Source: Bacteroidia bacterium (GTDB taxonomy: Bacteria > Bacteroidota > Bacteroidia > SpSt-205). Taken from it: a stretch of DNA of 64,000 bases. Under the pieces are notes generated by a model. That model searched no databases, was not told the DNA's origin, and saw nothing but the letters and a program-made list of their open reading frames with translations. Of the stretch, positions 3,948 to 61,422 are shown in pieces. Both the position numbers and the translations under genes were made by a program. Each line of letters begins with the position of its first letter. Within the stretch, counting starts at the first letter, position 1. Location: assembly GCA_026003215.1 (NCBI GenBank), contig BPGV01000001.1, positions 795,001 through 859,000 of the forward strand, in the 5' to 3' direction.

Positions 3948-3955
3948 TACTTTTG
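3948..3955 (+). promoter_or_regulatory. -7 element TACTTTTG, DUF4139-like gene
   Basis: Matches TAnnTTTG; ends seven bases before ATG 3963. Confidence 0.7.
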
Positions 3956-3962
3956 CGCGTGT

Positions 3963-5279
3963 ATGGCAAAACTATGGATTTCGCTGGGCCTTCTGTGGGG
4001 ACAGGTCTCCCTGCCGCTGAGCCGCTTGGTATGGTATGCTAATGGACGCGTGTATTGGGTACGCGAGGCGGTGGTACCCCTGCCCGAACGCAAGCTTGTG
4101 GTTAAACTACCGGGGGAAACCCCACCCATAGGCCCCTTAGTCCAGCCAGAATATCGGATACACCGATGGAGCCTAAATCCAGATACCTTGCTGCGTACGC
4201 CTTTCAGCTTACCCCCCCACTTAGAAGGGTTTTTGCGGCAGCATATCGGTGCTTCTGTATGGGTAAGCTACCTCGCGGGCAGTGAGTGGGAAGAAACAGT
4301 GGGCGTGTTAGAAGGGGTTTTCCCTGAGGGCATTCTTTTGCGGAAGGCCACAGGAGAAAAAGTATGGCTACCCACCAAACTGCTACAAGGAGTACGCGTA
4401 GAGGGAGGAGGTACCCGACGGGAAGTACATGGGGCCTGGCGCTTAGTTTTGGAAACGGATACCACCTTGCCTGCTGCCCGTGTGGCAGTGGCAGGCTGGG
4501 ATACCCTCCCTCCTTGGCAGGCCTATCATACGTTGCGCTTGCTCGGCCCCACCCGTGTCGCACTCACTACATGGACAAGCCTCCCCCCCCTCCCTGAAAC
4601 GGCCTACCCCGTCGAACTCTACCTCCTCCAGCGAAACACCGACAGTACCACCCTGAGCTGGCATCTCCCCCTCCAAAAGATTACCGCCGGCAGTAGCACC
4701 CATATCCTCCTCCTGCAAACGGAAATCCCCTATACAGAGCTATACCGAGCGTTGCTGCCAGACCTGATAGAGAGCTTAGACCCCCTCACCATAGGGCAGT
4801 GGAAGGGCGGCGCCGAACGCAGCCTCCAACTGCTAAATACCGAAAAGACGCCTATCCCCTTAGGTCAAGCGCTGCTCTTGGATGAAGGGGGCCTCCCTAT
4901 GGCCGAAGGCACCCTTCCAGCCATACCGCCTACTACGACAGGTTATTTTCTTTTGGCGCCTATCCCTACCCTCCAACTGCGCCTCCAAGAGAGTGAAGTG
5001 CGTCGGGAAAAGCTGCGCGACCCGGCCGCGGGTACCCAAGTCACGCTCTCAGGTACGCTGCGTATCCAGAACGGCTCGCCCAAGGAAGTGCGCCTCCTCG
5101 TGGAGAAGCCCATCACCGGCATCCCGCTACAAGACAAGTTAGGCTTTGCTCGGGCGGTACCTCTACCCGAACGACGCGGCCCTAATCCGCGCTATACCCT
5201 CACGTGGGAGCTCCTATTGCGCCCCGGCGCCACAGAAACGCTGGACTACACCTACGAGGTACTCCTCCCCACCCGATAA
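3963..5279 (+). CDS. Exported protein with DUF4139-like C-terminal region
   Basis: A 438-residue protein with a very short signal peptide ending in WGQ (residues 11-14). Most of it is beta-rich with many Pro, Leu and Thr residues. The last 90 residues, ending in a LTWELLLRPG...LDYTYEVLLP pattern, resemble the end of DUF4139 proteins, in which a beta-sandwich closes with a W-x-L-x-L-x-PG strand and YEV. The function is unknown; the location should be periplasm or outer membrane. The start at 3963 is supported by a -7 element seven bases upstream. It is divergent from priA, with 15 bases between start codons, and tail to tail with the fatty acid hydroxylase. Confidence 0.65.
   Translation: MAKLWISLGLLWGQVSLPLSRLVWYANGRVYWVREAVVPLPERKLVVKLPGETPPIGPLVQPEYRIHRWSLNPDTLLRTPFSLPPHLEGFLRQHIGASVWVSYLAGSEWEETVGVLEGVFPEGILLRKATGEKVWLPTKLLQGVRVEGGGTRREVHGAWRLVLETDTTLPAARVAVAGWDTLPPWQAYHTLRLLGPTRVALTTWTSLPPLPETAYPVELYLLQRNTDSTTLSWHLPLQKITAGSSTHILLLQTEIPYTELYRALLPDLIESLDPLTIGQWKGGAERSLQLLNTEKTPIPLGQALLLDEGGLPMAEGTLPAIPPTTTGYFLLAPIPTLQLRLQESEVRREKLRDPAAGTQVTLSGTLRIQNGSPKEVRLLVEKPITGIPLQDKLGFARAVPLPERRGPNPRYTLTWELLLRPGATETLDYTYEVLLPTR
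3967..3974 (-). promoter_or_regulatory. -7 element TAGTTTTG, priA
   Basis: Matches TAnnTTTG; lies within the first codons of the divergent gene, 19 bases before the priA ATG. Confidence 0.5.
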
Positions 5280-5280
5280 C

Positions 5281-5916
5281 CTACTGCTGCACCACACGGG
5301 GCCGCTCTTCCGGCAGAGTCCCAAATACCCAATCCCAAAACGGAGAAGACACCCCAAAGGCTCTGTCCGGACTCTTAAAGTGGTGCAGATGATGATGCCG
5401 CCAGAGCTTCCTAAGAAACTTCGTAGGGGGATTTTTCACCCGATGCATCAGGTAGTGCGTGGTAGAATACATCAGATACCCAATGATAAATCCCGCCAGA
5501 AATGCAAAGCCGTACTTGCCCAAGAAGAGATAAAATAGCGCTCCAAAAGCCGTAGCCAGTATCAGGCTCGGGACTGGCGGCATGAAAAGATGATGGGGGT
5601 CGGAAGGATATTCATGATGGACCCCATGCACAAGATAATGGAACCGTTGTACCCAAGGCCGCTCATCCACCCAGTGAAACACAAACCGATGAAGGAGGTA
5701 CTCGGCCAATGTCCAGGTAAGCACAGCCGTAAAAAAAGTCACAGCCACAGCTTGTACCGACAGGCCCAAGCCCGCCACACTATAATAGAGGAGGCCTGAA
5801 ACAATCGGAATATACATGCCCCAAATGACATAGGGCGAGGAAAGCGTAAGGAGTTCTAAAATCGGGCTTTGGAAGAGGCGGGCGCGTCCGTGGACTTTGG
5901 GACGGATAGGTTCCAT
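5281..5916 (-). CDS. Fatty acid hydroxylase / sterol desaturase superfamily membrane protein
   Basis: This 211-residue membrane protein has four or five hydrophobic segments and the His clusters of the di-iron hydroxylase superfamily: EYLLHRFVFH, HYLVHGVHHEYPSD, HYLMH and HHHLHH. The layout is closest to fatty acid 2-hydroxylases, so the likely role is hydroxylating acyl chains of membrane lipids such as sphingolipids or lipid A; the exact substrate cannot be told. Its ATG lies four bases after a TATCTTTG element. It is transcribed alone, upstream of a terminator-bounded tRNA on the same strand. Confidence 0.82.
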   Translation of the reverse strand: MEPIRPKVHGRARLFQSPILELLTLSSPYVIWGMYIPIVSGLLYYSVAGLGLSVQAVAVTFFTAVLTWTLAEYLLHRFVFHWVDERPWVQRFHYLVHGVHHEYPSDPHHLFMPPVPSLILATAFGALFYLFLGKYGFAFLAGFIIGYLMYSTTHYLMHRVKNPPTKFLRKLWRHHHLHHFKSPDRAFGVSSPFWDWVFGTLPEERPRVVQQ

Positions 5917-5920
5917 GAGG

Positions 5921-5928
5921 CAAAGATA
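5921..5928 (-). promoter_or_regulatory. -7 element TATCTTTG, fatty acid hydroxylase
   Basis: Ends four bases before ATG 5916, predicting a leaderless mRNA. Confidence 0.75.
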
Positions 5929-5958
5929 CGTACTTTCCCGAATGCGGATTCGGGCAGT

Positions 5959-5987
5959 AAAAAAGGCGGAAGGGCTATCCTTCCGCC
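5959..5987 (-). terminator. Intrinsic terminator after the initiator tRNA
   Basis: A perfect nine-pair stem (GGCGGAAGG with CCTTCCGCC, five-base loop) lies just beyond the 3' end of the tRNA and is followed on the minus strand by six T residues. Confidence 0.85.
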
Positions 5988-5991
5988 GGCG

Positions 5992-6063
<72 letters not shown>

Positions 6064-6071
6064 ATGTGGTG

Positions 6072-6079
6072 CAAAGGTA
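6072..6079 (-). promoter_or_regulatory. -7 element TACCTTTG, initiator tRNA
   Basis: Ends eight bases before the tRNA 5' end; confirms that the element acts in transcription, not translation. Confidence 0.8.
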
Positions 6080-6105
6080 CGAAGTTTTGGATAAAGGCAA
6101 GCCCC

Positions 6106-6579
6106 TTACTGCCGGTTCATCGTGTAAGTACAAGTAACAGCAGTGCCGCCCACAGTATAGGTCAGCGTCAGTGTAAGCGTATTGCCATTGAGATTGCCAC
6201 TGCCACTTATAGTGACAGCTTGCCCCCCACTGGTGACCTGCTGAGAGGGCACTTCAAAAGTAGTACTACTGGTAAGCTTCCCTCTTATTTGATTGTCTAT
6301 CACAATAGCTATGGCTTCTACCTGGGATTTGTTTATGCTAAAAGCCACATTGTCTACGGAGCCGCCGCAGTTTTCGGTGCCACTCCAAGAACCGACAAAC
6401 TTCTCCCGGGCATCTACTTCGCATTTAGAACCTTCCCATGGGAGGGAACAGGTGCATTTGCCGTCATTACAGGTGCCTCCATTTTGACAGGTTACATCCT
6501 TGCAAGGGTCCTTCTTGCACCCAAGCAGGACAACGCCCCCCAAAATTACGGTTCCTAAAAGATAAGCTAAGCGCTTCAT
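6106..6579 (-). CDS. Lipoprotein with EGF-like domain and lipocalin-like body (copy 1)
   Basis: A 157-residue protein with a lipoprotein signal (LLGC at about residue 20) followed by KKD. Directly after the anchor comes an EGF-like module with six cysteines, CKDVTCQNGG...CTCSLPWEGSKC. The rest starts with DAREKFVGSW, reminiscent of the opening strand of lipocalin-like domains, and continues as beta strands rich in Thr and Gly. It is probably displayed on the outer membrane. A similar protein lies just upstream (6643-7128). The start is supported by TATCTTTG eight bases before ATG 6579. Function unknown. Confidence 0.75.
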   Translation of the reverse strand: MKRLAYLLGTVILGGVVLLGCKKDPCKDVTCQNGGTCNDGKCTCSLPWEGSKCEVDAREKFVGSWSGTENCGGSVDNVAFSINKSQVEAIAIVIDNQIRGKLTSSTTFEVPSQQVTSGGQAVTISGSGNLNGNTLTLTLTYTVGGTAVTCTYTMNRQ

Positions 6580-6587
6580 ATCAGGCG

Positions 6588-6595
6588 CAAAGATA
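6588..6595 (-). promoter_or_regulatory. -7 element TATCTTTG, EGF lipoprotein copy 1
   Basis: Ends eight bases before ATG 6579. Confidence 0.7.
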
Positions 6596-6642
6596 CAATG
6601 AAATCTTGGCATACACGCCAAATATGTACCCAAAGTTGCCTT

Positions 6643-7128
6643 CTACCGACGTTTTAGGGTCCAGAAGCAAGTATCTCTTTGACTGGTGCCCGCGGTGACG
6701 GCAAGCTGGAGGAGAAGGCTATCCCAGCGCTGTTCGGCCCAGCCTTCTACAGCAAGCGCTGTATCCCGCAGAAGCTGCTGAGAAAGACGCATGCGATACG
6801 GCTCTACCAAGCGTCCTGCCAAGGTATCCTGATAAGCAGCCACAAAGCTTCCGGCCAAGAACACTTGGTCCGTAAGCGAGTCTTTCCAAGCGAAGTAACG
6901 CATACCCCCCCGCACATCGCCGCACTGACGCAGCCCTTCCCAGGTCCCTACAAACTTCTCCCGCGCATCTTGGCTGCAATCGGAGCCTTCAAACGGAAGC
7001 GGACACTGGCATACGCCCGCCACACATACACCACTATTGATGCAAGGCGGGTTACACGCAGGCGTAGGCTTGCGCTGACAGGCTATACCCGCTACCCAGA
7101 GGGCCGAGGCAAAGGCAATCCAACGCAT
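6643..7128 (-). CDS. Lipoprotein with EGF-like domain and lipocalin-like body (copy 2)
   Basis: A 161-residue paralogue of the downstream lipoprotein. The lipobox is AGIAC (Cys at about 17). The EGF-like module CNPPCINSGVC...CQCPLPFEGSDC follows, then DAREKFVGTW, almost the same junction as in copy 1. The remaining sequence differs strongly, so the duplication is old or the body is under different selection. The ATG is four bases after TACCTTTG. Both copies have their own promoter elements, so they need not be co-transcribed. Role unknown; surface binding is a guess from the domain types. Confidence 0.75.
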   Translation of the reverse strand: MRWIAFASALWVAGIACQRKPTPACNPPCINSGVCVAGVCQCPLPFEGSDCSQDAREKFVGTWEGLRQCGDVRGGMRYFAWKDSLTDQVFLAGSFVAAYQDTLAGRLVEPYRMRLSQQLLRDTALAVEGWAEQRWDSLLLQLAVTAGTSQRDTCFWTLKRR

Positions 7129-7132
7129 TCCT

Positions 7133-7140
7133 CAAAGGTA
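7133..7140 (-). promoter_or_regulatory. -7 element TACCTTTG, EGF lipoprotein copy 2
   Basis: Ends four bases before ATG 7128. Confidence 0.75.
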
Positions 7141-7150
7141 TCAAATGGCG

Positions 7151-7158
7151 TATGTTTG
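7151..7158 (+). promoter_or_regulatory. -7 element TATGTTTG, epimerase
   Basis: Ends five bases before ATG 7164 and contains the alternative ATG 7152, which it rules out as start. Confidence 0.7.
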
Positions 7159-7163
7159 CGCCC

Positions 7164-8171
7164 ATGCCTATTTCTTTGGTGACAGGGGGAGCCGGCTTTA
7201 TCGGAAGCCATGTGGCCGAGGAGCTCCTACGCTTGGGACATACCGTCGTGGTATTGGACGACCTCAGCGGAGGCTACCGCGATAATGTTCCGCCAGGCGC
7301 TACCTTCATAGAAGGAAGCATCTTAGATAAACCCCTCCTTCAAAACCTCTTTGAACAATACCCCTTTGACTTTGTGTTTCACTTGGCTGCCTACGCCGCC
7401 GAAGGACTAAGCCACTTCATCCGCAGCTTTAACTATACTAACAACCTCATTGGCAGCACATATCTTATAAATTTTTCCATCCTACGCAAGGTAAAGTGCT
7501 TTGTATTCACTTCCTCAATCGCTGTGTACGGCAAAAATCAACTGCCCATGCATGAAGATTTAGTGCCCCAGCCGGAAGATCCTTACGGCATAGCTAAATA
7601 TGCTGTGGAACTGGACCTGAAAGCAGCCCACGAGCTCTTTGGCCTGAACTATATTATCTTCCGACCCCACAATGTCTATGGAGAAAGACAAAATATCGGC
7701 GATAGATACCGAAATGTGATTGGTATTTTCATGAACCAGCTTTTGCAGGGAAAACCCCTTACGGTATTTGGCGATGGCAGCCAGACACGGGCTTTTTCTT
7801 ATATTGGGGATGTGGCCCCTTACATCGCAAAAAGTGTACATATTCCTGAGGCTTACAACGAAGTTTTCAATATTGGTGGGGACACACCCTATTCTATCAA
7901 TCAACTTGCCGAAGCCGTGATGGAAGCGATGGGTATTCGTCAGCCTATTCGCTACTTACCTCCGCGGAATGAGGTACTTCATGCCTATGCTGACCACCAA
8001 AAAGCCTACCGGGTCTTTGGTATACAACCTACCCAACTTACCCCGCTCGCTGAGGGCCTTCACCGCATGGCTGAATGGGTAAAAAAGGTGGGTGCCCGCA
8101 AAACTGCCCCCTTCAAGGACATAGAGATCTACGAAAAACTCCCCGCCGTCTGGTTAGAAGAAGATGCCTAA
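7164..8171 (+). CDS. NAD-dependent nucleotide-sugar epimerase/dehydratase (SDR family)
   Basis: A 335-residue extended SDR enzyme. It begins with the NAD-binding motif TGGAGFIGSH, has LDDLSGG after the second strand, a catalytic Ser region FVFTSSIAVYG and the Tyr-Lys pair in YGIAKYA. It is most like UDP-glucose 4-epimerases (GalE group), but substrate specificity cannot be read. The start at 7164 is preferred over the ATG at 7152, because 7151-7158 is the promoter element TATGTTTG. The glycosyltransferase gene overlaps its end by eight bases, so the two are likely a small surface-polysaccharide operon. Confidence 0.85.
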   Translation: MPISLVTGGAGFIGSHVAEELLRLGHTVVVLDDLSGGYRDNVPPGATFIEGSILDKPLLQNLFEQYPFDFVFHLAAYAAEGLSHFIRSFNYTNNLIGSTYLINFSILRKVKCFVFTSSIAVYGKNQLPMHEDLVPQPEDPYGIAKYAVELDLKAAHELFGLNYIIFRPHNVYGERQNIGDRYRNVIGIFMNQLLQGKPLTVFGDGSQTRAFSYIGDVAPYIAKSVHIPEAYNEVFNIGGDTPYSINQLAEAVMEAMGIRQPIRYLPPRNEVLHAYADHQKAYRVFGIQPTQLTPLAEGLHRMAEWVKKVGARKTAPFKDIEIYEKLPAVWLEEDA

Positions 8172-9255
8172 AAAGATTGCCCTTCTCACCGTATATCCTC
8201 CGGACACGGTTCCCGGCTTGCGCTTTCGTATAGAACAGTACCTACCCCTCCTCCAAGCCGCCGGCTACGACATAGCGTGGGTCTCTTTCTTTGCTCCACA
8301 CCGGTACCGGTATGAGGCTTTTCGCTCCCCCCAGGCCAGTACCCTAAGGAAAGGTACACTCTTTCTCCAAGCAACCCTTACCGCCTTTGCCGCTCTCCGC
8401 AAAAGAACGGCTTACCCAGGGGTCTTCCTTTACCGGGAAGCTTCGCTGTGGGGTACCCCTTTTTTAGAAAAGCTGTGGACTGCGGGACGACCTTATATCT
8501 TAGACTTTGACGACGCTATCTGGCTTTTAGACACCTCCGAGGCTAACCGCGCCTTTGCTTGGCTCAAAAATCCCCGAAAAACCGAAGTCCTCTTGCGGAA
8601 AGCCCGGGTAGTCACCGTCTGTAATGCGTTTCTGGCCGCCTATGCCCGACAGTTTGCCTCGGATGTACGCATCATCCCCACCACTATAGACACCGACCTC
8701 TACCAGCCTCGCCCTAAACCCGAAAGGCCCCATGTCGTGATTGGCTGGAGCGGGAGCTTCACCACGCTCAAGCACCTACACACCATAGAAGGGGTTCTTG
8801 AGCACCTATACCAGCGCTATAAAGAGAAGGTACGGTTTCGGTTTATTGGGGCACCGCAGTATCGGCCGCCCTTTCCGGCGGAGGTGCTCCCCTGGCGAGC
8901 TGAAACTGAGGTCGCCGACCTCTCAGAGATAGATATCGGCGTGATGCCCCTACCCGCAGACGATTGGAGTCGCGGCAAGTGCGCCCTCAAAGCCCTCCAA
9001 TATATGGCGTTGGGTATCCCCGCCGTCGTCTCGCCCGTAGGCATGAATACCACGGTCATCCAAGACGGACAAAATGGCCTCTGGGCTGACACCCCCGAAG
9101 CTTGGATAAACAAACTCTCCTACCTGATAGAACACCCCGAAGAGCGCGAGCGCCTGGGCAGCGCCGGGCGAGAAACTGTGGAGAGCGAATACTCCGTACG
9201 AGCAAACTTTCCCAAGTACTTAGCCGCCTTTGAAGCCGCCTTTGGCCCGGCCTAA
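8164..9255 (+). CDS. Glycosyltransferase, GT-B fold (group 1/GT4-like)
   Basis: A 363-residue protein with two Rossmann halves. The N-terminal half has a LLTVYPPD opening with LRFRIEQYLPLL, and ILDFDDAIW in the middle. The C-terminal half has VIGWSGSFTTLKHL, IGVMPLPADDWSRGKCALKALQYMALGIPAVVSPVG and a Glu in the usual sugar-nucleotide region. It should transfer a sugar from an activated donor to a surface glycan or lipid. It overlaps the epimerase gene by eight bases. Donor and acceptor are unknown. Confidence 0.8.
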   Translation: MPKKIALLTVYPPDTVPGLRFRIEQYLPLLQAAGYDIAWVSFFAPHRYRYEAFRSPQASTLRKGTLFLQATLTAFAALRKRTAYPGVFLYREASLWGTPFLEKLWTAGRPYILDFDDAIWLLDTSEANRAFAWLKNPRKTEVLLRKARVVTVCNAFLAAYARQFASDVRIIPTTIDTDLYQPRPKPERPHVVIGWSGSFTTLKHLHTIEGVLEHLYQRYKEKVRFRFIGAPQYRPPFPAEVLPWRAETEVADLSEIDIGVMPLPADDWSRGKCALKALQYMALGIPAVVSPVGMNTTVIQDGQNGLWADTPEAWINKLSYLIEHPEERERLGSAGRETVESEYSVRANFPKYLAAFEAAFGPA

Positions 9256-9299
9256 TGCCAACTCTTGTATGAGATTGGCTATTGGCATAAATTTTGCCT

Positions 9300-9307
9300 T
9301 ACCTTTG
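9300..9307 (+). promoter_or_regulatory. -7 element TACCTTTG, lipoprotein 9316
   Basis: Ends eight bases before ATG 9316. Confidence 0.7.
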
Positions 9308-9315
9308 CCGGCAAT

Positions 9316-10257: not shown

Positions 10258-10277
10258 GGATAAAAAACTTTACCTTC

Positions 10278-10312
10278 AAGCGGGGCCTCTCTGAGGCCCC
10301 GCTTCTATTTTT
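10278..10312 (+). terminator. Intrinsic terminator whose T-tract overlaps the next promoter
   Basis: A perfect twelve-pair stem, AAGCGGGGCCTC (10278-10289) with GAGGCCCCGCTT (10293-10304), three-base loop, followed by CTATTTTT. It ends the lipoprotein transcript. The T-tract is shared with the -7 element TATTTTTG of the next gene. Confidence 0.9.
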
Positions 10313-10313
10313 G
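10306..10313 (+). promoter_or_regulatory. -7 element TATTTTTG, glycosyltransferase fragment
   Basis: Ends five bases before ATG 10319 and overlaps the T-tract of the preceding terminator. Confidence 0.6.
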
Positions 10314-10318
10314 TGCGG

Positions 10319-14670
<4,352 letters not shown>

Positions 14671-20834: not shown

Positions 20835-20842
20835 CAAAAATA
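20835..20842 (-). promoter_or_regulatory. -7 element TATTTTTG, secreted protein 18773-20830
   Basis: Ends four bases before ATG 20830. Confidence 0.7.
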
Positions 20843-20931: not shown

Positions 20932-20939
20932 TATATTTG
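20932..20939 (+). promoter_or_regulatory. -7 element TATATTTG, helical-repeat protein
   Basis: Ends eight bases before ATG 20948. Confidence 0.7.
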
Positions 20940-24314: not shown

Positions 24315-24322
24315 CAAAAGTA
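24315..24322 (-). promoter_or_regulatory. -7 element TACTTTTG, nuoI operon
   Basis: Ends five bases before ATG 24309; heads nuoI-nuoJ-queD-folE. Confidence 0.65.
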
Positions 24323-24743: not shown

Positions 24744-24751
24744 TACCTTTG
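24744..24751 (+). promoter_or_regulatory. -7 element TACCTTTG, guaB
   Basis: Ends three bases before ATG 24755. Confidence 0.75.
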
Positions 24752-28241: not shown

Positions 28242-28249
28242 TATCTTTG
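28242..28249 (+). promoter_or_regulatory. -7 element TATCTTTG, rsbV
   Basis: Ends four bases before ATG 28254; lets rsbV-rsbW-ruvB-queG be transcribed apart from rsbU. Confidence 0.7.
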
Positions 28250-34284: not shown

Positions 34285-34292
34285 CAAAGGTA
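34285..34292 (-). promoter_or_regulatory. -7 element TACCTTTG, rplM operon
   Basis: Ends eight bases before GTG 34276. Confidence 0.75.
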
Positions 34293-36563: not shown

Positions 36564-36571
36564 CAAATATA
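36564..36571 (-). promoter_or_regulatory. -7 element TATATTTG, secreted M1 aminopeptidase
   Basis: Ends four bases before ATG 36559; part of an inverted repeat with the divergent M43 promoter. Confidence 0.75.
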
Positions 36572-36603: not shown

Positions 36604-36611
36604 TACCTTTG
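36604..36611 (+). promoter_or_regulatory. -7 element TACCTTTG, secreted M43 protease
   Basis: Ends four bases before ATG 36616. Confidence 0.75.
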
Positions 36612-36615: not shown

Positions 36616-38877
36616 ATGAAGTATCTTTTATGCCTGGCAGGGGCCCTAATATGGGCCCAAACGCATCGCTGCGGCACGATAGAGCGCCTTCAATACCTTA
36701 TGCAGCAGGACCCTTCCATCCTGAGCCGTATGCAAGCGGTGGAAGAGCACACTCGCCAATACATGCAAAATCTTGCACGTATGCCCGGACAACGCACCAA
36801 TAATGTGATTACCATACCGGTAGTCGTGCATATTGTCTATCGCACCGCCAGCGAAAATATCACGGACGCTCAGGTCCAATCCCAGATAGATGTGCTCAAT
36901 GAAGACTTCCGTCGGCTGAATGCAGATACGACCAATACCCCTTCGCTTTTTGCGGGGGTGGCAGCCGATGCCGAAATCCAGTTTTGTTTAGCTACCCGAG
37001 ATCCCTTAGGGAATCCCACCACCGGCATCACCCGCACCCAGACCACGAAAACTTCTTTCAGCGCATATGCTGATGATGTCAAGTTTAGCAGTCAAGGGGG
37101 GAAGGACGCTTGGCCCACAGACCAATACCTGAATATATGGGTATGCCGGCTCTCCGGGGGCGTTCTGGGATATGCGCAATTTCCTGGGAGCGGACCAGCG
37201 AGTACCGATGGGGTGGTGATAGACTTTCGGTACTTCGGGCGGGGTGGATCGGCCCAAGCGCCTTACGATCAAGGACGCACCGCTACCCACGAGGTGGGTC
37301 ACTGGCTCAACCTTCGTCATATTTGGGGCGATGCTCAGTGCGGCGATGACCTCGTAAATGACACCCCTACCCAAGAAGGCCCTAACTACAGCTGTCCTAC
37401 TTTTCCCCATCCCACTTGTGGCAATACCAGTGACATGTTCATGAACTACATGGATTACACCGATGACGCTTGCATGAACCTTTTCACCGTAGGGCAGAAA
37501 AATCGCATGCGGGCCGTGCTCAGTCTGGGGGGCTATCGGTACAGCCTTCTCAGTTCCTTAGGCTGTTCTCCCCCAGGGGGCGGCTGCTCGGGCACCCAAA
37601 CCCTTACCGCTTCCTCAGGGACTTTCTCCGACGGCAGTGGCACAAGTAACTATCAAAACAACGCCGACTGCCGCTGGCTTATTCAACCTTCTAATGCCCT
37701 GTCTATCACCCTTTCTTTCCAAAGCTTCCAGCTGCTCTCTGGGGACTCCGTGATTGTATATGATGGGAGTACTACTTCGGCCCCACGCTTGGGCGCCTTT
37801 TCCGGAAGTAGCTTGCCTCCTTCCGTCACCTCCAGCGGAGGCGTAATGCTGGTACGGTTTATCTCAAACGGCAGTGGCGTAGCGGATGGCTTTGTTGCCT
37901 CTTACACCTCTCAGCTCAACCTCCCCTGCTATGGGACGCAAGTGCTTACCCAAGCTTCGGGTACCATAACCGATGGAAGCGGCACCTCCGACTACCAAGA
38001 TAACGCCGACTGCAAATGGGTCATCCAGCCCGGCAGTGGAGCGGGTATTCGCATAGAGTTTACGCAGTTTGCCACGGAGCAGGGGTATGACTTTGTCACC
38101 ATTTACGATGGCTCCTTGGTAAACTCCACCTATATGGTGCGTCGCTTCTCGGGTACAAATCTGCCCTCGGTGGTGACCACGTCTATTCCCGAGGCCACCA
38201 TTTACTTTACCTCTGACCAGAGTATCACGGCGGCAGGCTGGGGGCTAAACTACACCACCATAGCCCAGCCGTACTGCCAAGGAACAGTACAGCTTACGGC
38301 GCCCAGTGGGAGCTTCTCCGACGGAAGCGGGAATAGCGATTACACAAACAGAGCCGACTGCCGCTGGCTCATCCAGCCCCCAGGAGCTACTTGGGTTAGG
38401 TTGTCTTTTACCAGCTTCACCACAGAAGCGAACTATGACTTTGTGCGGGTGTATGATGGCCCGACTACCAGCTCGCCCCTCTTAGGCAGTTATAGTGGTA
38501 CTACCTTGCCCCCTACGCTCACCTCCACAGGCGGCAGTATGCTCGTGGTCTTTACCTCCGACAGCTCTATTACTCGGGCAGGCTGGGAGGCTACCTATAC
38601 CAGTAATGGCACTTCTACCGCGCTCTCTGCTGAAAGTGCTGCTGAGGTACGCTTCTACCCCACCCCAGCGCATGAAGTCCTCCATATAGAATTACCGCAG
38701 CCCCAAGGCGGCGGTATCCTCACCGTCTATGACCTTCAAGGACGGAAAGCGTGGGAAGGCCTCCTACAGCCTGGCAACAATACCCTATCGGTCGTATCCT
38801 GGGCATCAGGGGTTTATATTGGGGTTCTCCAACAATCACAGGGAGCGGTGGTAAGCTTCCGCTTCGTGAAGGAGTAG
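36616..38877 (+). CDS. Secreted M43 (pappalysin-type) metalloprotease with three CUB domains and type IX tail
   Basis: The protein is 753 residues. The signal peptide ends in LIWAQ. The metzincin core has HEVGHWLNLRHIWGD (zinc His, catalytic Glu; Asn where Gly is classical) and the Met-turn region MFMNYMDYTDD. Three CUB-like domains follow (about 325-430, 440-550, 555-665), each with the pattern G-S/T-FSDGSG-N/SDY-NNADCRWLIQP and a Y-DG turn. A Por tail ends the chain (EVRFYPTPAHEVLHIELP...VYDLQGRK). It probably cuts extracellular proteins, the CUB units giving adhesion. ATG 36616 is four bases after TACCTTTG. Confidence 0.9.
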   Translation: MKYLLCLAGALIWAQTHRCGTIERLQYLMQQDPSILSRMQAVEEHTRQYMQNLARMPGQRTNNVITIPVVVHIVYRTASENITDAQVQSQIDVLNEDFRRLNADTTNTPSLFAGVAADAEIQFCLATRDPLGNPTTGITRTQTTKTSFSAYADDVKFSSQGGKDAWPTDQYLNIWVCRLSGGVLGYAQFPGSGPASTDGVVIDFRYFGRGGSAQAPYDQGRTATHEVGHWLNLRHIWGDAQCGDDLVNDTPTQEGPNYSCPTFPHPTCGNTSDMFMNYMDYTDDACMNLFTVGQKNRMRAVLSLGGYRYSLLSSLGCSPPGGGCSGTQTLTASSGTFSDGSGTSNYQNNADCRWLIQPSNALSITLSFQSFQLLSGDSVIVYDGSTTSAPRLGAFSGSSLPPSVTSSGGVMLVRFISNGSGVADGFVASYTSQLNLPCYGTQVLTQASGTITDGSGTSDYQDNADCKWVIQPGSGAGIRIEFTQFATEQGYDFVTIYDGSLVNSTYMVRRFSGTNLPSVVTTSIPEATIYFTSDQSITAAGWGLNYTTIAQPYCQGTVQLTAPSGSFSDGSGNSDYTNRADCRWLIQPPGATWVRLSFTSFTTEANYDFVRVYDGPTTSSPLLGSYSGTTLPPTLTSTGGSMLVVFTSDSSITRAGWEATYTSNGTSTALSAESAAEVRFYPTPAHEVLHIELPQPQGGGILTVYDLQGRKAWEGLLQPGNNTLSVVSWASGVYIGVLQQSQGAVVSFRFVKE
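37600..38620 (+). repeat. Three CUB-domain coding repeats
   Basis: Within the M43 protease gene, three roughly 330-base units encode similar CUB domains, each with FSDGSG or ITDGSG and NADCRWLIQP/NADCKWVIQP/RADCRWLIQP. Confidence 0.7.
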
Positions 38878-40267: not shown

Positions 40268-40275
40268 TATATTTG
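40268..40275 (+). promoter_or_regulatory. -7 element TATATTTG, outer-membrane protein 40280
   Basis: Ends four bases before ATG 40280 and fixes this start. Confidence 0.75.
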
Positions 40276-46533: not shown

Positions 46534-46541
46534 CAAAGGTA
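46534..46541 (-). promoter_or_regulatory. -7 element TACCTTTG, hypothetical 45489-46523
   Basis: Ends ten bases before ATG 46523. Confidence 0.65.
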
Positions 46542-51982: not shown

Positions 51983-51984
51983 AG

Positions 51985-52058
51985 CGCACCCGGGAGGACT
52001 CGAACCCCCAACCGCCAGATCCGAAGTCTGGTGCTCTATCCAATTGAGCTACGGGTGC
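51985..52058 (-). tRNA. tRNA-Arg (TCG)
   Basis: A 74-base cloverleaf on the minus strand: acceptor GCACCCG/CGGGTGC with discriminator G, anticodon stem CCAGA/TCTGG with loop CTTCGGA, giving anticodon TCG, and T-arm with TTCGAGT. CCA is not encoded. A TACCTTTG element ends seven bases before the 5' end. rplY starts two bases downstream. Confidence 0.94.
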
Positions 52059-52065
52059 AGGGCCA

Positions 52066-52073
52066 CAAAGGTA
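52066..52073 (-). promoter_or_regulatory. -7 element TACCTTTG, tRNA-Arg / rplY
   Basis: Ends seven bases before the tRNA 5' end. Confidence 0.8.
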
Positions 52074-52080
52074 CAAAATC

Positions 52081-53390: not shown

Positions 53391-53396
53391 ACGGGA

Positions 53397-53404
53397 CAAA
53401 GGTA
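53397..53404 (-). promoter_or_regulatory. -7 element TACCTTTG, small membrane protein 53028
   Basis: Ends six bases before ATG 53390 and fixes this start. Confidence 0.7.
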
Positions 53405-53422
53405 AGAGGAGTTTTGCGTTTT

Positions 53423-54927: not shown

Positions 54928-56162
54928 TCTTTTTTAGGCAAGGGCTTTATCCGCACACTATCTCGTAGCTTTTCCTGTAACACATCATACGGACCTACTA
55001 CTATAACTCGTCCTTCTTGAAGCCCTTCCGTGACTTCTATCTGCTGATCGTCTGCTACGCCTGTTTTCACTGGACGCTCCCGCACCACAGAACCCCCCTC
55101 TACCTCATATACGACTTCCTTTTGGCCCCGAACGGCTACCGCTTGGAGGGGCACCGCCACCACTGCGTCGCGGCGAGTATAGAATATGCGTACGACTGCA
55201 CTCATCTCGGGTCGTAGCGGGTATTTTTTTCGGTCATATCGGGCCGTATCTATGGCTATGCGCACCAAGTAAGTGCTTACTTGTTCTCCGCCCAGTGCCG
55301 AAGCGTCCTGGGTAGCGGCTTTGCCAGAACTGTATCCAATCTCTTGCACGCGTCCAACGAAATACACGCCCGGATAAGCTTGAACCTCCACGCTCGCCGA
55401 ATCTCCTACATGAAGCCGTACGACATCGCTTTCTGTGATTTGCACTTCTACCAAGAAGCGGCTAAGGTCAGCGATACGCACGCTTTCTGTACCGGCCATT
55501 TGGCCCACACCTACTACACGTTGGCCTGTGCGCACCAGGAGCCGCGTGACCACCCCATCCATAGACGCATATACCGACGTCCGTTGGTAATCAATCTGGG
55601 CTCGGCGTAGGTTTGCTTCGGTGCTGCGGATACGGTAGTATGCAGCCTGCACATTACTTTCTGCACTGCGCAGCTGGGCTTGCGCCACCTGATACCGAAT
55701 CCGCGCCGCATCCCAATCTGCCTCCGCAATAGCTTGCTTCTCATACAGCTTCTGGGCCCGGACAAAAGCCAGCGAGTCCTGTAAGAAACTGGCTCGCTGC
55801 TGAGCCAACGCCGCCTGCGCTGCCGCATATTGGGCCTTAGCTTCCTCCAACGCCGCCTGCATCTGCATAAGCGCCGTCTGATAGTTATCCGGCCGAATCG
55901 TAAAAAGCACCTGCCCAGCTCGTACCGTATCCCCTTCCTTCACGTAGATGCGCACCACCTCACCCGAGACATCTGGGCTAATCGGCACCTCCACCACAGG
56001 CCGTATCACCGCCGACTCCGTGATAAACGGGATAATCGTATGCCGTCGTACCGTGTCTACCTCCACAGCCAGCGTATCGCGGGAACCCCAAATCCAGCGG
56101 CCCCCAAGCATCCCTATCAGGAGAATAAGCCCGATCCAGAGTATCCACTTCCTGAGTTTCAT
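54924..56162 (-). CDS. HlyD/AcrA-type efflux periplasmic adaptor
   Basis: A 412-residue membrane fusion protein: N-terminal anchor helix, lipoyl half-motif (ISPDVSGEVVRIYVKEGDTVRAGQVLFTI), a long coiled-coil hairpin (about 95-205, Ala/Gln-rich), the second lipoyl half (VYASMDGVVTRLLVRTGQRV), beta-barrel and membrane-proximal domain. It links an inner-membrane pump to TolC, whose gene is directly upstream. No pump gene (RND or MacB) is adjacent: gpsA follows. Confidence 0.9.
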   Translation of the reverse strand: MKLRKWILWIGLILLIGMLGGRWIWGSRDTLAVEVDTVRRHTIIPFITESAVIRPVVEVPISPDVSGEVVRIYVKEGDTVRAGQVLFTIRPDNYQTALMQMQAALEEAKAQYAAAQAALAQQRASFLQDSLAFVRAQKLYEKQAIAEADWDAARIRYQVAQAQLRSAESNVQAAYYRIRSTEANLRRAQIDYQRTSVYASMDGVVTRLLVRTGQRVVGVGQMAGTESVRIADLSRFLVEVQITESDVVRLHVGDSASVEVQAYPGVYFVGRVQEIGYSSGKAATQDASALGGEQVSTYLVRIAIDTARYDRKKYPLRPEMSAVVRIFYTRRDAVVAVPLQAVAVRGQKEVVYEVEGGSVVRERPVKTGVADDQQIEVTEGLQEGRVIVVGPYDVLQEKLRDSVRIKPLPKKE

Positions 56163-57535
56163 AAGTCTGCGTATTTACCGATGTAGGCTCCCAAGAGAAG
56201 TGTGCGTAGCTGTACTTCCATATGGGCCTGAGCGGCTTCGGCTTGAGCTTGTGTGTAGGCTTGGAGCGATTCTCGGAAGGTCCAGTAAGATACACGCCCG
56301 GCTTCGTACTGGGCTTGGGTCTGCCGAAAGGCCCGCTCCGCCGCTTCTAAGCTGCGCTGCAAAGCCCGTTCCTGGGCCAGCGCATTTTGCCAAGCCATAT
56401 AGGCTTGTTGGGTACGGCGCACCACCTGCTGCCGCTGGATAAGGGTCTGAAGCTGCGCATTTTGCAGGTTAGCCTCCGCCCGCACTACCTGCGTACGCTG
56501 CCTCAGCTGCCGAAAAATAGGCACCGATAAAGTAAAGCCCACCGATTGATTGAAGTTTTCGCGCACCTGCCGCTCAAAAGGTAGCGGTTCTCGCACTATA
56601 CCCAGCACAGGATCAAACCGAATATTGCCTGCGTTTGAGGAGTAGTTCGTTTGAATAGAAGCATTCAGGGAAAGGGTAGGCCAATACCCCGCTCGGGCTG
56701 TACGCAGGGCATACTGTTGGAGGAGTTCTCGCCAGCGGGCTTCTTGCAGCTCCGGGGCAAAGGCTAAGGCCTTTTGGAGGGCTTCTGCTTCGGTCAGGAG
56801 GCCGAGGGGTTCTACTGTTATCCCGAGGGTAAACTCCACCGAATCTACCCGCACCTCATCCCAAGCCATGAGCTGGAGGAGGGCAAGTTTATTTTCTCGG
56901 TGGCGGGCATACAAGCTGAGGTATTGAGCTTCCTCGCGGGCAAGCTGTGCCGCTAAGGAAAGGCTATCCGTCAAAAGCACTTGGCCTACTTCCAGCTGAG
57001 CGGTTACCCGCGCGAGTTGGTCGCGCAAACGCTCTATCCGCTGCTGCGCCAGCACCAGCGCGGAGGAGTCGCTGAGCGTCTGGATAAACTGCATGAGAGC
57101 TTGGGCCAGTACCTCGGTCTGCGTGCGCCGGTAGGTGGCTTGCGCCAGGGCGGCATTGGCCTGCGCCTGCCGAAGAAGATAATGATTCGCTAAACCCGCA
57201 AAAAGTGTCCAACTGGCCCCCACCGACCCCGAACTAAACGTGGTAGTTTGCTGCACCCGAGTGAAAGCGAAAGGGTCAAAAGTGGTACCATAGTTTTGCG
57301 TGGCACTGGCACTGGCCGAAATATTCGGCAGAAAGTTGGCGTATCCTTGATACACCTCCCATTGGGTAGTACGTAGCGAGAGAGCCGCCTGGCGCACCGT
57401 GAGCGCATTATCCCGCACCGCTGCCAAAAAAGTAGGGAGAGCAATCCATTTTACACCGGTAGGCGGAAAAGACGGGAGGGCTTCCTGCGCAAACAAAAGC
57501 GCCCAACTCCACCAGCAGAAAGCTTTATATTTCAT
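56159..57535 (-). CDS. TolC-family outer membrane channel protein
   Basis: A 458-residue protein with signal peptide ending in LLFAQ. Two related halves each with long helices (e.g. TQTEVLAQALMQFIQTLSDSSALVLAQQRIERLRDQL and LRQRTQVVRAEANLQNAQLQTLIQRQQ) and a strand region YWPTLSLNASIQTNYS in the second half match the outer-membrane efflux protein repeat. It forms the outer channel with the adaptor encoded next. ATG 57535 overlaps lysC by 11 bases. Confidence 0.9.
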   Translation of the reverse strand: MKYKAFCWWSWALLFAQEALPSFPPTGVKWIALPTFLAAVRDNALTVRQAALSLRTTQWEVYQGYANFLPNISASASATQNYGTTFDPFAFTRVQQTTTFSSGSVGASWTLFAGLANHYLLRQAQANAALAQATYRRTQTEVLAQALMQFIQTLSDSSALVLAQQRIERLRDQLARVTAQLEVGQVLLTDSLSLAAQLAREEAQYLSLYARHRENKLALLQLMAWDEVRVDSVEFTLGITVEPLGLLTEAEALQKALAFAPELQEARWRELLQQYALRTARAGYWPTLSLNASIQTNYSSNAGNIRFDPVLGIVREPLPFERQVRENFNQSVGFTLSVPIFRQLRQRTQVVRAEANLQNAQLQTLIQRQQVVRRTQQAYMAWQNALAQERALQRSLEAAERAFRQTQAQYEAGRVSYWTFRESLQAYTQAQAEAAQAHMEVQLRTLLLGAYIGKYADL

Positions 57536-58790
57536 ACGTGAGCCAGTGAATACGGTCCGGCAGGCGCTGAAGGTAGAGCGCTTCGCCATTAGGGAGGGGA
57601 AAGTTTTCCGAAGGATAAAGCACGGTACTTAAAGTGACAGGCTGACGGAGCTGCACTTCCCATCCCGCGGGTAGGGTGGTTCGCCACCGCTCTAAGCTAT
57701 CTTGGGGACCTTGCACGGCCAGAGCCGCTGTACGCCGGCCTCCTTGTGCAAAATATACTTCTATCCCTTCGGCTTCTAAACCTTGTAAAAGCTCGCCTAA
57801 GGACAGGGGAGATAAATCTACGCTTTCCACTTCTATCAACAAAAGGCCTTTGCGGGTGGCACGGATAGGCGGAAGGGGGTCTACCCACTTTTCCGCGATA
57901 AGCGACCCTTCTGCCTCTGGCTCAAAGTAGGAAAGAATGTATAAGGGGATTCGGGCATCCCGCAAAGGCTTAAGGGTGCGTGGGTGGAGGACTTGGGCAC
58001 CATAGTAGGTCATTTCAGCAGCCTGAGCGTAGCTTAGCTCAGGAAGGGGCTGGGCGTCTGGATAGGTCCGTGGGTCAGCAGAGTACAAGCGACCTACATC
58101 TTTCCAAGCAATCATTCCCTGGGCATTTAGCAGCTGAGCAAAGAGTGCAGCCGAGTAATCCGAACCTTCTCGGCCCAAAGTGACACTCCGTCGGCGAAGG
58201 TCCGATGCAATATACCCTTGCGTAATGACCAAACGATGCGTACGGAAAAGCGGCACCAGTTGCGCATCTACATTCGCTTGACTGGGACCTAACAGCACCT
58301 CCGGCTCAGGATAAGCTCCATCTGTGACGAGGAGCCGCCGAGCATCTATCCACTCCAGAGGAAAGCCTTGTCCAGAGAGATAGGCGGCTACAATCTCACT
58401 ACTCAGAAGCTCTCCATACACGAGAATGGCATCGGTAGCAGCGCCATCGGCTTCACCCAAGTGCGCCAAGGCTTGTACTCGCTGCCAGAGCCCCTGCCAA
58501 TACTTTTCTTCTAACCGCTTCCAGAGGGCTTCGGCCGTGGGGAAAGGGAAAAGCCCTTCTACCATCTCGCGATGAAAAGCCTGTATCTCGCCAAAGACCC
58601 GATGCGCTGCCGAAAGGTCAGCCCGTGCCGCACTCTCTGCTAACGCAACCAATCGGTTAGTGGTTTTGCCAAAGGCAGACACCACTAAAAGCCGCCGCGC
58701 CTCGGGATAGGCTGCTTGCAGGACCATAGGTAGTTGGCGAACCGCCTCCACATCCCTAAGGCAGCCGCCCCCCACCTTCATCACCCACAT
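57525..58790 (-). CDS. lysC: Aspartate kinase
   Basis: A 421-residue monofunctional enzyme phosphorylating aspartate, entry to lysine, threonine and methionine. The N-terminal motif is KVGGGCLRD (classically KFGGTSV), with VVSAFGKTTNRL, the catalytic and binding stretch LGREGSDYSAALFA, WKDVGRLYSADPR and AEMTYYGAQVLHPRTL. The C-terminal 120 residues should be ACT domains. ATG 58790 is four bases after TACCTTTG. It is divergent from nadB with 29 bases between starts. Confidence 0.93.
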   Translation of the reverse strand: MWVMKVGGGCLRDVEAVRQLPMVLQAAYPEARRLLVVSAFGKTTNRLVALAESAARADLSAAHRVFGEIQAFHREMVEGLFPFPTAEALWKRLEEKYWQGLWQRVQALAHLGEADGAATDAILVYGELLSSEIVAAYLSGQGFPLEWIDARRLLVTDGAYPEPEVLLGPSQANVDAQLVPLFRTHRLVITQGYIASDLRRRSVTLGREGSDYSAALFAQLLNAQGMIAWKDVGRLYSADPRTYPDAQPLPELSYAQAAEMTYYGAQVLHPRTLKPLRDARIPLYILSYFEPEAEGSLIAEKWVDPLPPIRATRKGLLLIEVESVDLSPLSLGELLQGLEAEGIEVYFAQGGRRTAALAVQGPQDSLERWRTTLPAGWEVQLRQPVTLSTVLYPSENFPLPNGEALYLQRLPDRIHWLTYEI

Positions 58791-58794
58791 GCGG

Positions 58795-58802
58795 CAAAGG
58801 TA
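58795..58802 (-). promoter_or_regulatory. -7 element TACCTTTG, lysC operon
   Basis: Ends four bases before ATG 58790; five bases from the nadB element on the other strand. Confidence 0.75.
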
Positions 58803-58807
58803 GCAGT

Positions 58808-58815
58808 TATATTTG
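58808..58815 (+). promoter_or_regulatory. -7 element TATATTTG, nadB
   Basis: Ends four bases before GTG 58820 and supports this start codon. Confidence 0.75.
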
Positions 58816-58819
58816 CCTT

Positions 58820-60410
58820 GTGCGGGTAGAAACCGACTATTTAGTCATCGGCAGCGGCGTAGCCGGGCTTTTTTTTGCGCTCAAAGCCGCTGCGTACGGA
58901 GAGGTCCTCCTCCTTACCAAAGACCAAATCCAAGAAAGCAACACCACCTATGCCCAAGGCGGCATCGCCGGCGTCTTCTCCTCCCAAGACAGCTTTGAAG
59001 CTCATATCCAAGACACCCTCACCGCAGGGGACGGCCTCTGCCGAGAAGCGGTGGTGCGCAGCGTCATCCAAGAAGCACCCGCTGCTATCCGAGAGCTGAT
59101 GGCATACGGCGTAGAGTTTGACCGAGATGAAACGGGGCAGCTCCTCCTGGCCCGAGAGGGAGGACATTCGCACCCGCGCGTATTGCATAGCCGAGATGCC
59201 ACCGGTGCCGCCATCAGTAAAGCGCTCATTGCCGCCGTGCAAGCCCATCCCCGTATCCAAGTGTGGGAGGGGGTCTTTGCCCTGGACCTGATTACGCAGC
59301 ACCACTTGGGCATATATGTCAATAGGGGCTACCCCGGCATCACCTGCTATGGAGTCTATGCCCTGGAAATAGCCACGGGCAAAATCTGGACTATCCTCTC
59401 TCGCGTCACGGTGTTAGCCGCTGGGGGCGCCGGCCAAGTGTATCCTGTCACCACAAATCCCCCTACCGCCACCGGTGATGGCGTAGCGATGGCCCTGCGC
59501 GCAAAAGCCCGCATAGCCAATATGGAGTTTTACCAGTTTCACCCCACCGCTTTATACGAACCCGATAAGCGTCCGGCCTTCCTGCTCACAGAAGCCCTGC
59601 GAGGCGCCGGCGCTACCCTCGTAGATCCCCTCCGCCACAAGCCCTTCATGCATAAGTATGACCCGCGGGGAGACCTGGCCCCTCGGGATATTGTGGCCCG
59701 TGCCATAGACACCGAGTCCAAGATCGCCGGCCTGCCCTATGTCTTCTTAGATGCTCGGCCAGTAAAAAACCTCCCCGAAAACTTCCCCACTATCTACCAG
59801 TATTGTCTAAAAAAAGGGGTAGACCCCACTCAAGACCTCCTTCCCGTGGCGCCTGCTGCCCACTACATGGTGGGGGGCATAGATACCGATCCGCAGGGCC
59901 GCACTTCTATCCAACGGCTCTATGCCATCGGCGAAGTAAGCTATACCGGCCTCCACGGCGCTAACCGCTTAGCCTCTAACTCGCTCTTAGAGGCCCTGGT
60001 CTTTGCCCGCCGTGCTGCCCAGGACACCCGCGATAAGCTCGCTTCCTACACTGGGCAAAAAGAGGTGCCCGATTGGGACCCCCCGAGGCAGCCGCCATCC
60101 CGAAGAACGCGTACTCATCAGCCATAACCTCCAAGAGCTGCGCACCCTCATGGGAAACTATGTAGGGATTGTACGGTCAAACTTTCGTTTGGAGCGGGCC
60201 CGCCGCCGCATCGCCCTCCTCTACGAGGAAACCGAAGCTTTTTACGCCCATACCTACCCCTCCCGAGAACTCTTTGAACTGCGTAACCTCATCGCCGTGG
60301 CTTACCTTATCGTCAAATGCGCCAGCATCCGGAAAGAAAGCCGGGGCTTACACTATACCTTGGATTACCCCACAAAAAAACCCGGTCCCCCCTGGGATAC
60401 CCTGGTCTAA
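58820..60410 (+). CDS. nadB: L-aspartate oxidase, one +1 frameshift
   Basis: About 529 residues once a base is removed. It oxidises aspartate to iminoaspartate for NAD synthesis. FAD motif GSGVAGLFFALKAA, active-site stretches AQGGIAGVFSSQDSF, GGHSHPRVLHSRDATG, and TASNSLLEAL-type LASNSLLEALVFARRAA are clear. The frame breaks at the C6 run 60079-60084: zero frame gives DPPRQPP and a stop at 60125-60127, the next frame gives RHPEERVLISHNLQELRTLMGNYVGIVR, the expected C-terminal domain. GTG 58820 is supported by TATATTTG ending four bases before it. Confidence 0.92.
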
Positions 60411-60438
60411 AAGAGAGCGCCTCTCATCCCACAAACTC

Positions 60439-60473
60439 AAAAAAAGAAAAGGGGATAGGCTTAGCCTACCCCC
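60439..60473 (-). terminator. Intrinsic terminator of the Mn catalase gene
   Basis: On the minus strand a ten-pair stem with one G-U pair (GGGGGTAGGC / GCCTATCCCC, three-base loop) is followed by TTTTCTTTTTTT, 24 bases after the catalase stop. Confidence 0.88.
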
Positions 60474-60496
60474 TCTATGGCCCAGATGGGAGGATT

Positions 60497-61396
60497 TTAC
60501 CGGGCTTTTTTCATCAGCCAGTCGGCTATTTCTTTGAGCTCTTCTATATTATATCCTGGCGCAAATACGGCGGGTTCTTCGGGGGGATTGGCTGGGCCGC
60601 CGGCGTGCTCAGGAAGTCCGTCTATGACCTCTAACGGCTGTCCATCCGCCGGGTGCTCGCCCGTCCACACCGCGGTGATTTCCTTAAAGTCCTCTAAGCT
60701 AAAGCGGTACAGGCGGCGATGGAACCCTCGCTCAATGAAAGGCCGCGACTCCTTAAACTCAATGTCAGGGATGCGCGGGATAGGCAGCATCTTTTTGACA
60801 TCTACCCCCGTCAGTACTTCTAAGGCTTTGGCATAAGCTAAGGCATGGACACCGCCACGGACAAAGAGGTACCCCAGCATTTGCCGAGCAATCGGGTGGT
60901 CCGTCATTTCATACACCCGGATTTTAGCCATGCGGGCCCCATTTTCTAAAAAGAAGTTGTGCAAGAGGTCCAAAATCAAGTCCCCAGAGTTGAAGACATA
61001 CTCGCCGTTCCATCCTTGTCCGAGGGCATTTACGGGCAGCGCACCGAGGCCGCTATTGATGTAGTGATGACGTAGGCCAGCGCTGTCTTTGAGGTTTTTC
61101 AACGGTGTCTCACGGGGATCATCTTTTTCAGGGGCTCCAGTCAAGAGGCCATTAATCACCGCCGAGACGAGCTCTATGTGTCCGTACTCCTCAGCGGCGA
61201 TGTTGGCAATCAGGGCATAAAAAGGACGAACCTTGTCTCGGCCCCGGAGGTTGAAGGACTGGTAGGTGTAGTTCATGAGGGTGGACATTTCGCCAAAGCG
61301 TCCGCCCAAAAGTTCTTGCACGGCTGCGGCTGCGGCCGGATCCGGCTCGCTGGGCATCGGCAGCTCAATTTGCAGTCGGTCTACTCGCAGTATCAT
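60497..61396 (-). CDS. Manganese catalase
   Basis: A 299-residue non-haem catalase, very similar to the Thermus type from the first residues (MILRVDRLQIELPMP). The dimanganese ligands are visible in the four-helix bundle: Glu of GRFGEMSTLMNY, EEYGHIE, the Glu of FFLENGARM or RVYEMTD, and the His of VRGGVHALAYAKALE. It destroys peroxide. ATG 61396 is chosen; the TTG at 61417 lies within the promoter element TACCTTTG, 18 bases upstream, so this gene has a real leader. It is monocistronic with its own terminator. Confidence 0.95.
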   Translation of the reverse strand: MILRVDRLQIELPMPSEPDPAAAAAVQELLGGRFGEMSTLMNYTYQSFNLRGRDKVRPFYALIANIAAEEYGHIELVSAVINGLLTGAPEKDDPRETPLKNLKDSAGLRHHYINSGLGALPVNALGQGWNGEYVFNSGDLILDLLHNFFLENGARMAKIRVYEMTDHPIARQMLGYLFVRGGVHALAYAKALEVLTGVDVKKMLPIPRIPDIEFKESRPFIERGFHRRLYRFSLEDFKEITAVWTGEHPADGQPLEVIDGLPEHAGGPANPPEEPAVFAPGYNIEELKEIADWLMKKAR

Positions 61397-61414
61397 AGGC
61401 GTGTAGGTTTGCCC

Positions 61415-61422
61415 CAAAGGTA
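61415..61422 (-). promoter_or_regulatory. -7 element TACCTTTG, Mn catalase
   Basis: Ends 18 bases before ATG 61396, an exception with a true leader. Confidence 0.65.

Follow-up and report, generated by a model that had tools for sequence, protein, structure and literature searches.

In a window of 64,000 nucleotides (nt) from a Bacteroidia genome (bases 795001-859000 of G000, a single contig of 2,268,343 bases, 99% complete), the motif TAnnTTTG repeatedly stands a few bases before start codons, most often exactly four. This motif is taken to be the -7 box of promoters read by sigma-A, and its placement very probably makes the mRNAs of many first-in-operon genes leaderless or nearly so; among all first-in-operon genes, the share whose mRNAs lack a leader is probably about half or more. 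Widespread leaderless transcription had been proposed for the window in an initial annotation. Placement of the box, conservation of its spacing, its bias toward first genes, and its spread through the lineage, all of which were observed directly, support that reading and point to the predicted 5′ ends described below.

To quantify box placement, we defined the spacing k as the number of nucleotides between the end of the box and the start codon. Within the window, the motif (TANNTTTG) matched 61 times, compared to 30.15 expected (standard deviation, 4.86) from 100 dinucleotide shuffles, none of which reached 61. The lack of a genome-wide excess at a spacing of four bases had been named beforehand as a result that would refute the proposal, and the excess was found: TAnnTTTG-N4-ATG occurs 223 times in 2.27 Mb, versus 16 times for the reversed motif used as the genome-wide control. 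Gene-level counts were made in a sample of 864 kb (38% of the genome), for which 640 genes were called for this analysis, with starts chosen from coding potential and in-frame ATG or GTG codons, without protein data and without use of the box. When only ATGs opening at least 60 codons were counted in this sample, 76 boxes fell at k=4 (2 for the reversed motif), followed by 33, 22, 20, and 18 at k=5, 6, 7, and 8; k=3 held 10, and bins from 9 onward mostly 2 to 6. A peak of the reversed-motif control at k=9 is spurious, because it stems mostly from a clustered regularly interspaced short palindromic repeat (CRISPR) array at L034:14141-15880 (genome position about 134 kb), which has at least 11 exact copies of the repeat GTTTTTATCGGCCCATTATGGAGTGGAAAC. 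An exact box 3 to 8 nt before an in-frame start was present for 178 of the 640 genes, whereas 29 permutations of the box letters, given the same freedom of an in-frame start near the called one, yielded a mean of 4.8 and a maximum of 20.

The box is concentrated at genes that begin transcription units. Divergently transcribed genes (n=158 in the sample) were taken as first in their operons, and codirectional genes separated by 20 bp or less were treated as internal. An exact box at 3 to 8 nt was found for 81 divergent genes (51%), compared to 1.4 for permuted motifs. Permitting one mismatch added 37 genes (14.8 in the control), and therefore roughly 60 to 65% of divergent genes fit the pattern. 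Only 10% of internal genes were boxed, as would be expected of a promoter element and not of a ribosome site. Most of the excess at divergent genes (85%) lay at 3 to 8 nt.

The spacing itself is conserved. For the gene starting at 36616, all six orthologues with available upstream DNA keep exactly 4 nt, one of them with a box that differs by a single letter (TATCTTTA), while the middle letters of the box, the linkers, and the DNA further upstream have diverged. Among 137 orthologue pairs, k=4 was kept in 13 of the 14 pairs in which the gene has k=4 and the relative is boxed, a result that favors the earlier suggestion that four-base spacing is under selection. The residues following the box-proximal ATG are common to orthologues (MTPE/MTPE, MEAL/MEAL, and MWAL/MWAL), with different bases upstream, and in genes 58790, 7164, and 58820 the conserved domain starts at residue 2, 5, and 6, respectively. 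Because N termini match and domains begin this early, the box-proximal start codons look real.

Several features identify the box as a promoter element. Its two middle letters avoid G (about 5% each in the 178 boxes), favoring C or T and then C, and an A-rich peak lies near -18 of the boxed genes. Among 19 tRNA and transfer-messenger RNA (tmRNA) genes, 11 have a box 4 to 9 nt upstream, with a mode of 7; no box lies directly upstream of the RNase P RNA match, which offers no anchor for the start site. No enrichment of T or TTG was seen near -33 of the boxed genes in the sample. In Flavobacterium johnsoniae, too, the -33 element is far less conspicuous (PMC6847099), which makes it an unreliable criterion for a sigma-A promoter. 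Compared to known sigma-ABfr -33/-7 promoters of Bacteroidetes, those of the sample share TAnnTTTG, the avoidance of G in mid-box, and, as in F. johnsoniae, the A-rich peak near -18; they differ in lacking a visible -33 TTTG and in the middle letters C/T then C. Genome-wide spacing, first-gene bias, orthologue footprints, family-wide occurrence, the tRNA anchors, and the lack of Shine-Dalgarno (SD) sequences and riboswitches all uphold the reading of a sigma-A -7 box joined to start codons, with transcripts predicted to be leaderless or nearly so.

To predict where transcripts begin, we drew on the F. johnsoniae map, in which transcription starts 4 or 5 nt past the box TAHHTTTG (no G in its middle, G at -5) (PMC6847099). 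In the sampled genome, one tRNA-Ser gene at a spacing of 4 and eight tRNA genes at 6 to 8 bound the start point from the other side. Family genes with k=6, 7, and 8 favor a purine at base 5, 5, and 6 past the box, respectively (60%, 74%, and 65%; P = 0.008, 9e-6, and 0.003 in one-sided binomial tests that assume 40%). Taken together, these data would put +1 on the A of AUG at a spacing of 4 and leave about 1 to 4 nt at spacings of 5 to 8, so that the predicted transcripts should begin at the AUG or at most about 4 nt before it. In family genes with k=7 or 8 (L031-L070, L151-L170, and L204-L223), the three bases before ATG favor G-N-T (GAT, GGT, or GCT), with T at -1 in 64 to 70%; this may reflect either a preferred site for starting transcription or the context of translation.

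Signals for translation initiation upstream of the start codon were then considered. SD-like sequences precede 2 of 178 boxed genes, compared to 9.7 in the upstream control, and no SD excess was found before internal genes of the 864-kb sample either. Among gaps between codirectional genes, -4 (64 cases) and 1 to 4 stand out, a pattern consistent with coupled reinitiation. No 16S rRNA was found in any of 13 genomes, and no anti-SD match in the sampled loci. Ribosomal proteins bS1 and bS21 were found in nearly all genomes; no bS1 was found in G298, which is 66% complete. At the second codon, boxed genes of the sample more often carry TGG (13/178, versus 4/234 internal genes and a background of 2.1%) and CGN (46/178 versus 22/234), while internal genes favor AAG or AAA.

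Known regulatory leaders were likewise not found. Rfam scans of the 864 kb matched only tRNA and tmRNA and no leader element. The cobalamin riboswitch was absent from all 12 genomes of the family, in which cobalamin-regulated genes were not searched for, and present in a sister-family genome and in 8 of 14 controls. The thiamine pyrophosphate (TPP) riboswitch was found in none of 13 genomes of the order, compared to 10 of 14 controls; since the sister-family genome also lacks it, its loss may predate leaderlessness. The thiamine gene thiC is itself predicted to be leaderless, with its box at k=4, and, with no TPP riboswitch in the order, thiamine control, if any, would therefore work in another way. 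The initial annotation had held that no ribosome binding site or riboswitch can exist; this applies to boxed first genes and does not extend beyond them, as the box lies 9 to 150 nt upstream for about 15% of the sample's boxed divergent genes and internal cistrons have upstream RNA.

The pattern extends through the family of G000. All 12 genomes, from two genera, have 133 to 223 four-base matches, versus 2 to 23 in controls, and within the family the box is near the start in 65 to 93% of boxed divergent genes. In a sample of 297 genomes across the phylum, the k=4 excess per Mb of G000 was by far the largest, followed by that of G041 (128 versus 33 in 2.2 Mb), which is mixed, with a k=4 peak and a hump at 15 to 21 nt; near-start shares were 32% in G041 and 23% in Hymenobacter. 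Other Bacteroidota loci showed a minor peak at k=4 (20 matches in 1.26 Mb) and a broad hump at 14 to 33 nt that the family lacks. Close relatives of one window protein come from metagenome-assembled Bacteroidia, several of which bear isolate names that point to hot-spring samples (KatS3mg026, SKYB7, SKYB95, SKW77, SKYG57, and SKW103), and from a contig deposited as Sphingobacterium sp. RSWP8 (L072, JAPYWM010000006.1), which holds a family protein with 75% identity. The Sphingobacterium label looks wrong, and the contig appears to belong with the family of G000.

Outside the family, a sample of 395 genomes of the class revealed strong k=4 excesses in f86 (G342, 317 versus 47), f93 (G349, 164 versus 43), f67 (G323, 108 versus 17), f7 (G041, 108 versus 15), and f77 (G538, 136 versus 19). 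As several other Bacteroidia families have this excess, four-base placement has likely recurred in the class. Per Mb, the excess in f86 (G342, G375, and G404) is comparable to that of the family of G000 (G342 comprises 2.9 Mb). In the only genome available from the sister family (G297, 77% complete), no clear k=4 excess was seen (50 versus 39); its mode is at 7 (84 versus 27 in the control), with a second hump at 20 to 28 nt. The last three linker bases before ATG in this genome (L184-L203) are most often GCT, CCT, or GCC, and a fixed three-nucleotide leader of the form box-N4-GC(U/C)-AUG is possible. We lean slightly toward a broader view in which one family has become mainly leaderless through a sigma-A start point locked onto AUG, with the tested riboswitches of the 5′ untranslated region (UTR) absent, several other Bacteroidia families have done so independently, and the sister family uses the fixed three-nucleotide leader.

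From these patterns we infer the following route to initiation. TAnnTTTG would serve as the -7 element of the primary sigma factor of Bacteroidota, with a fixed start point at the fifth, sometimes the sixth, base past the box. This start point would coincide with the A of AUG at a spacing of 4 and lie up to about 4 bases earlier at spacings of 5 to 8, giving leaders of 0 to 4 nt on about half to two-thirds of first-in-operon genes. By analogy to leaderless mRNAs elsewhere, such transcripts would be bound via their 5′-terminal AUG, probably by 70S ribosomes, without an SD or other upstream site. Internal cistrons would probably be reached by coupling, many starting in an ATGA overlap with the preceding gene.

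Three other explanations were weighed against this model. Instead of a promoter, the box could be a U-rich non-SD ribosome site that acts in translation, as proposed for Bacteroidetes, with transcription beginning further upstream. AT-rich non-canonical ribosome sites have indeed been described for Bacteroidota (PMC9581028), but we regard this as very unlikely here: internal genes, where such a site would be most needed, carry the box in 10% of cases, compared to 51% of divergent first genes, tRNA and tmRNA genes carry the box at a similar distance, the box follows the letter pattern of the promoter (TA, a middle without G, and TTTG), and only 2 of the 81 boxed divergent genes have a second exact box 12 to 150 nt upstream. 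Least probable of the three is that the box is a promoter followed by ordinary leaders, with true start codons further downstream. Starts were chosen without protein data, and kinase 58790 could use the ATG at codon 4; however, this would leave the enrichment of ATG at exactly 4 nt unexplained, and both the domains of 58790, 7164, and 58820 and the matching orthologue N termini above differing upstream bases speak for the box-proximal codons. Finally, the excess at spacing 4 could be a minor class in all Bacteroidota, with G000 being unremarkable. Favoring this are the small k=4 peak of other loci, published maps with 3.7% of leaders under 10 nt or 5.5% leaderless transcripts, and the strong excesses in some other Bacteroidia families. 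It nevertheless appears quite improbable given the rank of G000 far above G041, the near-start shares in the family compared to G041 and Hymenobacter, the missing 14- to 33-nt hump, and the mostly long leaders in existing 5′ end maps of typical Bacteroidota.

Other observations weigh against predominantly leaderless transcription. Gene starts are our own calls, and a few genes could begin at a later in-frame ATG, such as M4 of kinase 58790. As noted above, roughly 15% of the sample's boxed divergent genes carry the box at 9 to 150 nt, and about one-third of divergent genes have no clear box near the start. In their first 30 nt, the predicted transcripts of k=4 genes show no less structure than random genome segments, although weak structure would aid AUG-first initiation. 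With both bS1 and bS21 encoded, there is no visible specialization of the ribosome.

Within the window, the initial annotation had listed ten genes with four-base spacing, and all ten were correct. On the forward strand, these are thiC (10647-12470; TATATTTG at 10635..10642, ATG 10647), a STAS domain gene (TATCTTTG at 28242..28249, ATG 28254), a gene for a CUB-domain-containing M43 protease that weakly matches a Por-secretion tail (TACCTTTG at 36604..36611, ATG 36616), a gene starting at ATG 40280 (TATATTTG at 40268..40275), and an FAD_binding_2 gene whose domain starts at residue 6 (TATATTTG at 58808..58815, GTG 58820). On the reverse strand, they comprise a member of the fatty acid hydroxylase family (TATCTTTG at 5921..5928, ATG 5916), genes starting at ATG 7128 (TACCTTTG at 7133..7140) and ATG 20830 (TATTTTTG at 20835..20842), an M1 peptidase gene (TATATTTG at 36564..36571, ATG 36559) whose orthologue in L071 keeps k=4, and an amino acid kinase gene with its domain from residue 2 (TACCTTTG at 58795..58802, ATG 58790).

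Ten further genes with spacings of 3, 5, 6, 7, 8, or 10 were also recovered. Forward-strand boxes precede the IMP dehydrogenase gene (488 amino acids; TACCTTTG at 24744..24751, 3 nt before ATG 24755), an epimerase gene with its domain from residue 5 (TATGTTTG at 7151..7158, 5 nt before ATG 7164), and ATGs 3963 (TACTTTTG at 3948..3955, 7 nt), 9316 (TACCTTTG at 9300..9307, 8 nt), and 20948 (TATATTTG at 20932..20939, 8 nt). Those on the reverse strand precede a 4Fe-4S ferredoxin-like gene (TACTTTTG at 24315..24322, 5 nt before ATG 24309), the gene for ribosomal protein L13 (TACCTTTG at 34285..34292, 8 nt before GTG 34276), and ATGs 53390 (TACCTTTG at 53397..53404, 6 nt), 6579 (TATCTTTG at 6588..6595, 8 nt), and 46523 (TACCTTTG at 46534..46541, 10 nt). 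A leadered exception among the boxed genes has TACCTTTG at 61415..61422 (reverse strand), 18 nt before a predicted ATG at 61396. With it, 21 boxed protein genes were counted (10 at k=4, 10 at other short spacings, and 1 at 18), rather than the 23 first claimed; the last two hinge on the counting of small or overlapping reading frames. The two tRNA spacers were as described: on the reverse strand, TACCTTTG lies 8 nt before tRNA-Met (5991-6063; box at 6072..6079) and 7 nt before tRNA-Arg (51984-52058; box at 52066..52073).

Leaderless transcriptomes are already known from actinobacteria, Deinococcus, and archaea; a -7-box version dominating a Bacteroidota family would be new. A 2011 survey predicted leaderless genes at an average of 19% in Actinobacteria and 39% in Deinococcus-Thermus, and in 1 of 37 Bacteroidetes/Chlorobi genomes, at 2.4%, by a Pribnow-type search that, according to its authors, misses other promoters (PMC3160421). 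Those transcriptomes resemble the family in having a promoter a few bases before an AUG or GUG start and enrichment at first genes, but they use Pribnow-type -10 or archaeal elements, whereas the family uses the -7 box, with no SD detected even for internal genes. Among mapped Bacteroidota, about 3.7% of 5′ UTRs are shorter than 10 nt in Bacteroides thetaiotaomicron (PMC7366714), 5.5% of transcripts are leaderless in Flavobacterium psychrophilum (PMC9723704), and 87% of leaders exceed 10 nt in F. johnsoniae (PMC6847099), with median or mean leaders of 24 to 65 nt in the three species (PMC7366714, PMC6847099, PMC9723704). They share the -7 box and presumably the box-to-start distance (4 to 5 nt in F. 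johnsoniae), but very short or absent leaders make up only about 4 to 13%, whereas near-start boxes dominate in the family. Bacteroidota generally retain the anti-SD yet skip the SD; on the basis of a model-species map, leaderless initiation was explicitly rejected as the cause (PMC6847099). Base composition led the authors of a 2017 comparison to suggest that non-SD genes of Bacteroidetes may include leaderless ones (PMC5397173), and a later gene-start study assigned AT-rich non-canonical ribosome sites to the Fibrobacteres-Chlorobi-Bacteroidetes (FCB) group (PMC9581028). No description of a Bacteroidota lineage with mostly leaderless transcripts turned up in a literature search that reached few subscription papers and preprints.

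The family is uncultivated and known mainly from metagenomes, and it contrasts with mapped Bacteroidota, which use leaders on most genes. Leadered Bacteroidota, this predicted leaderless family, and a sister family with possible three-nucleotide leaders would offer a natural comparison for shifts in translation initiation. Both start codons and transcription start points may be callable directly from DNA in uncultivated genomes. Control through the 5′ UTR, such as by riboswitches, is predicted to be absent or relocated in this family, and thiC provides a concrete case.

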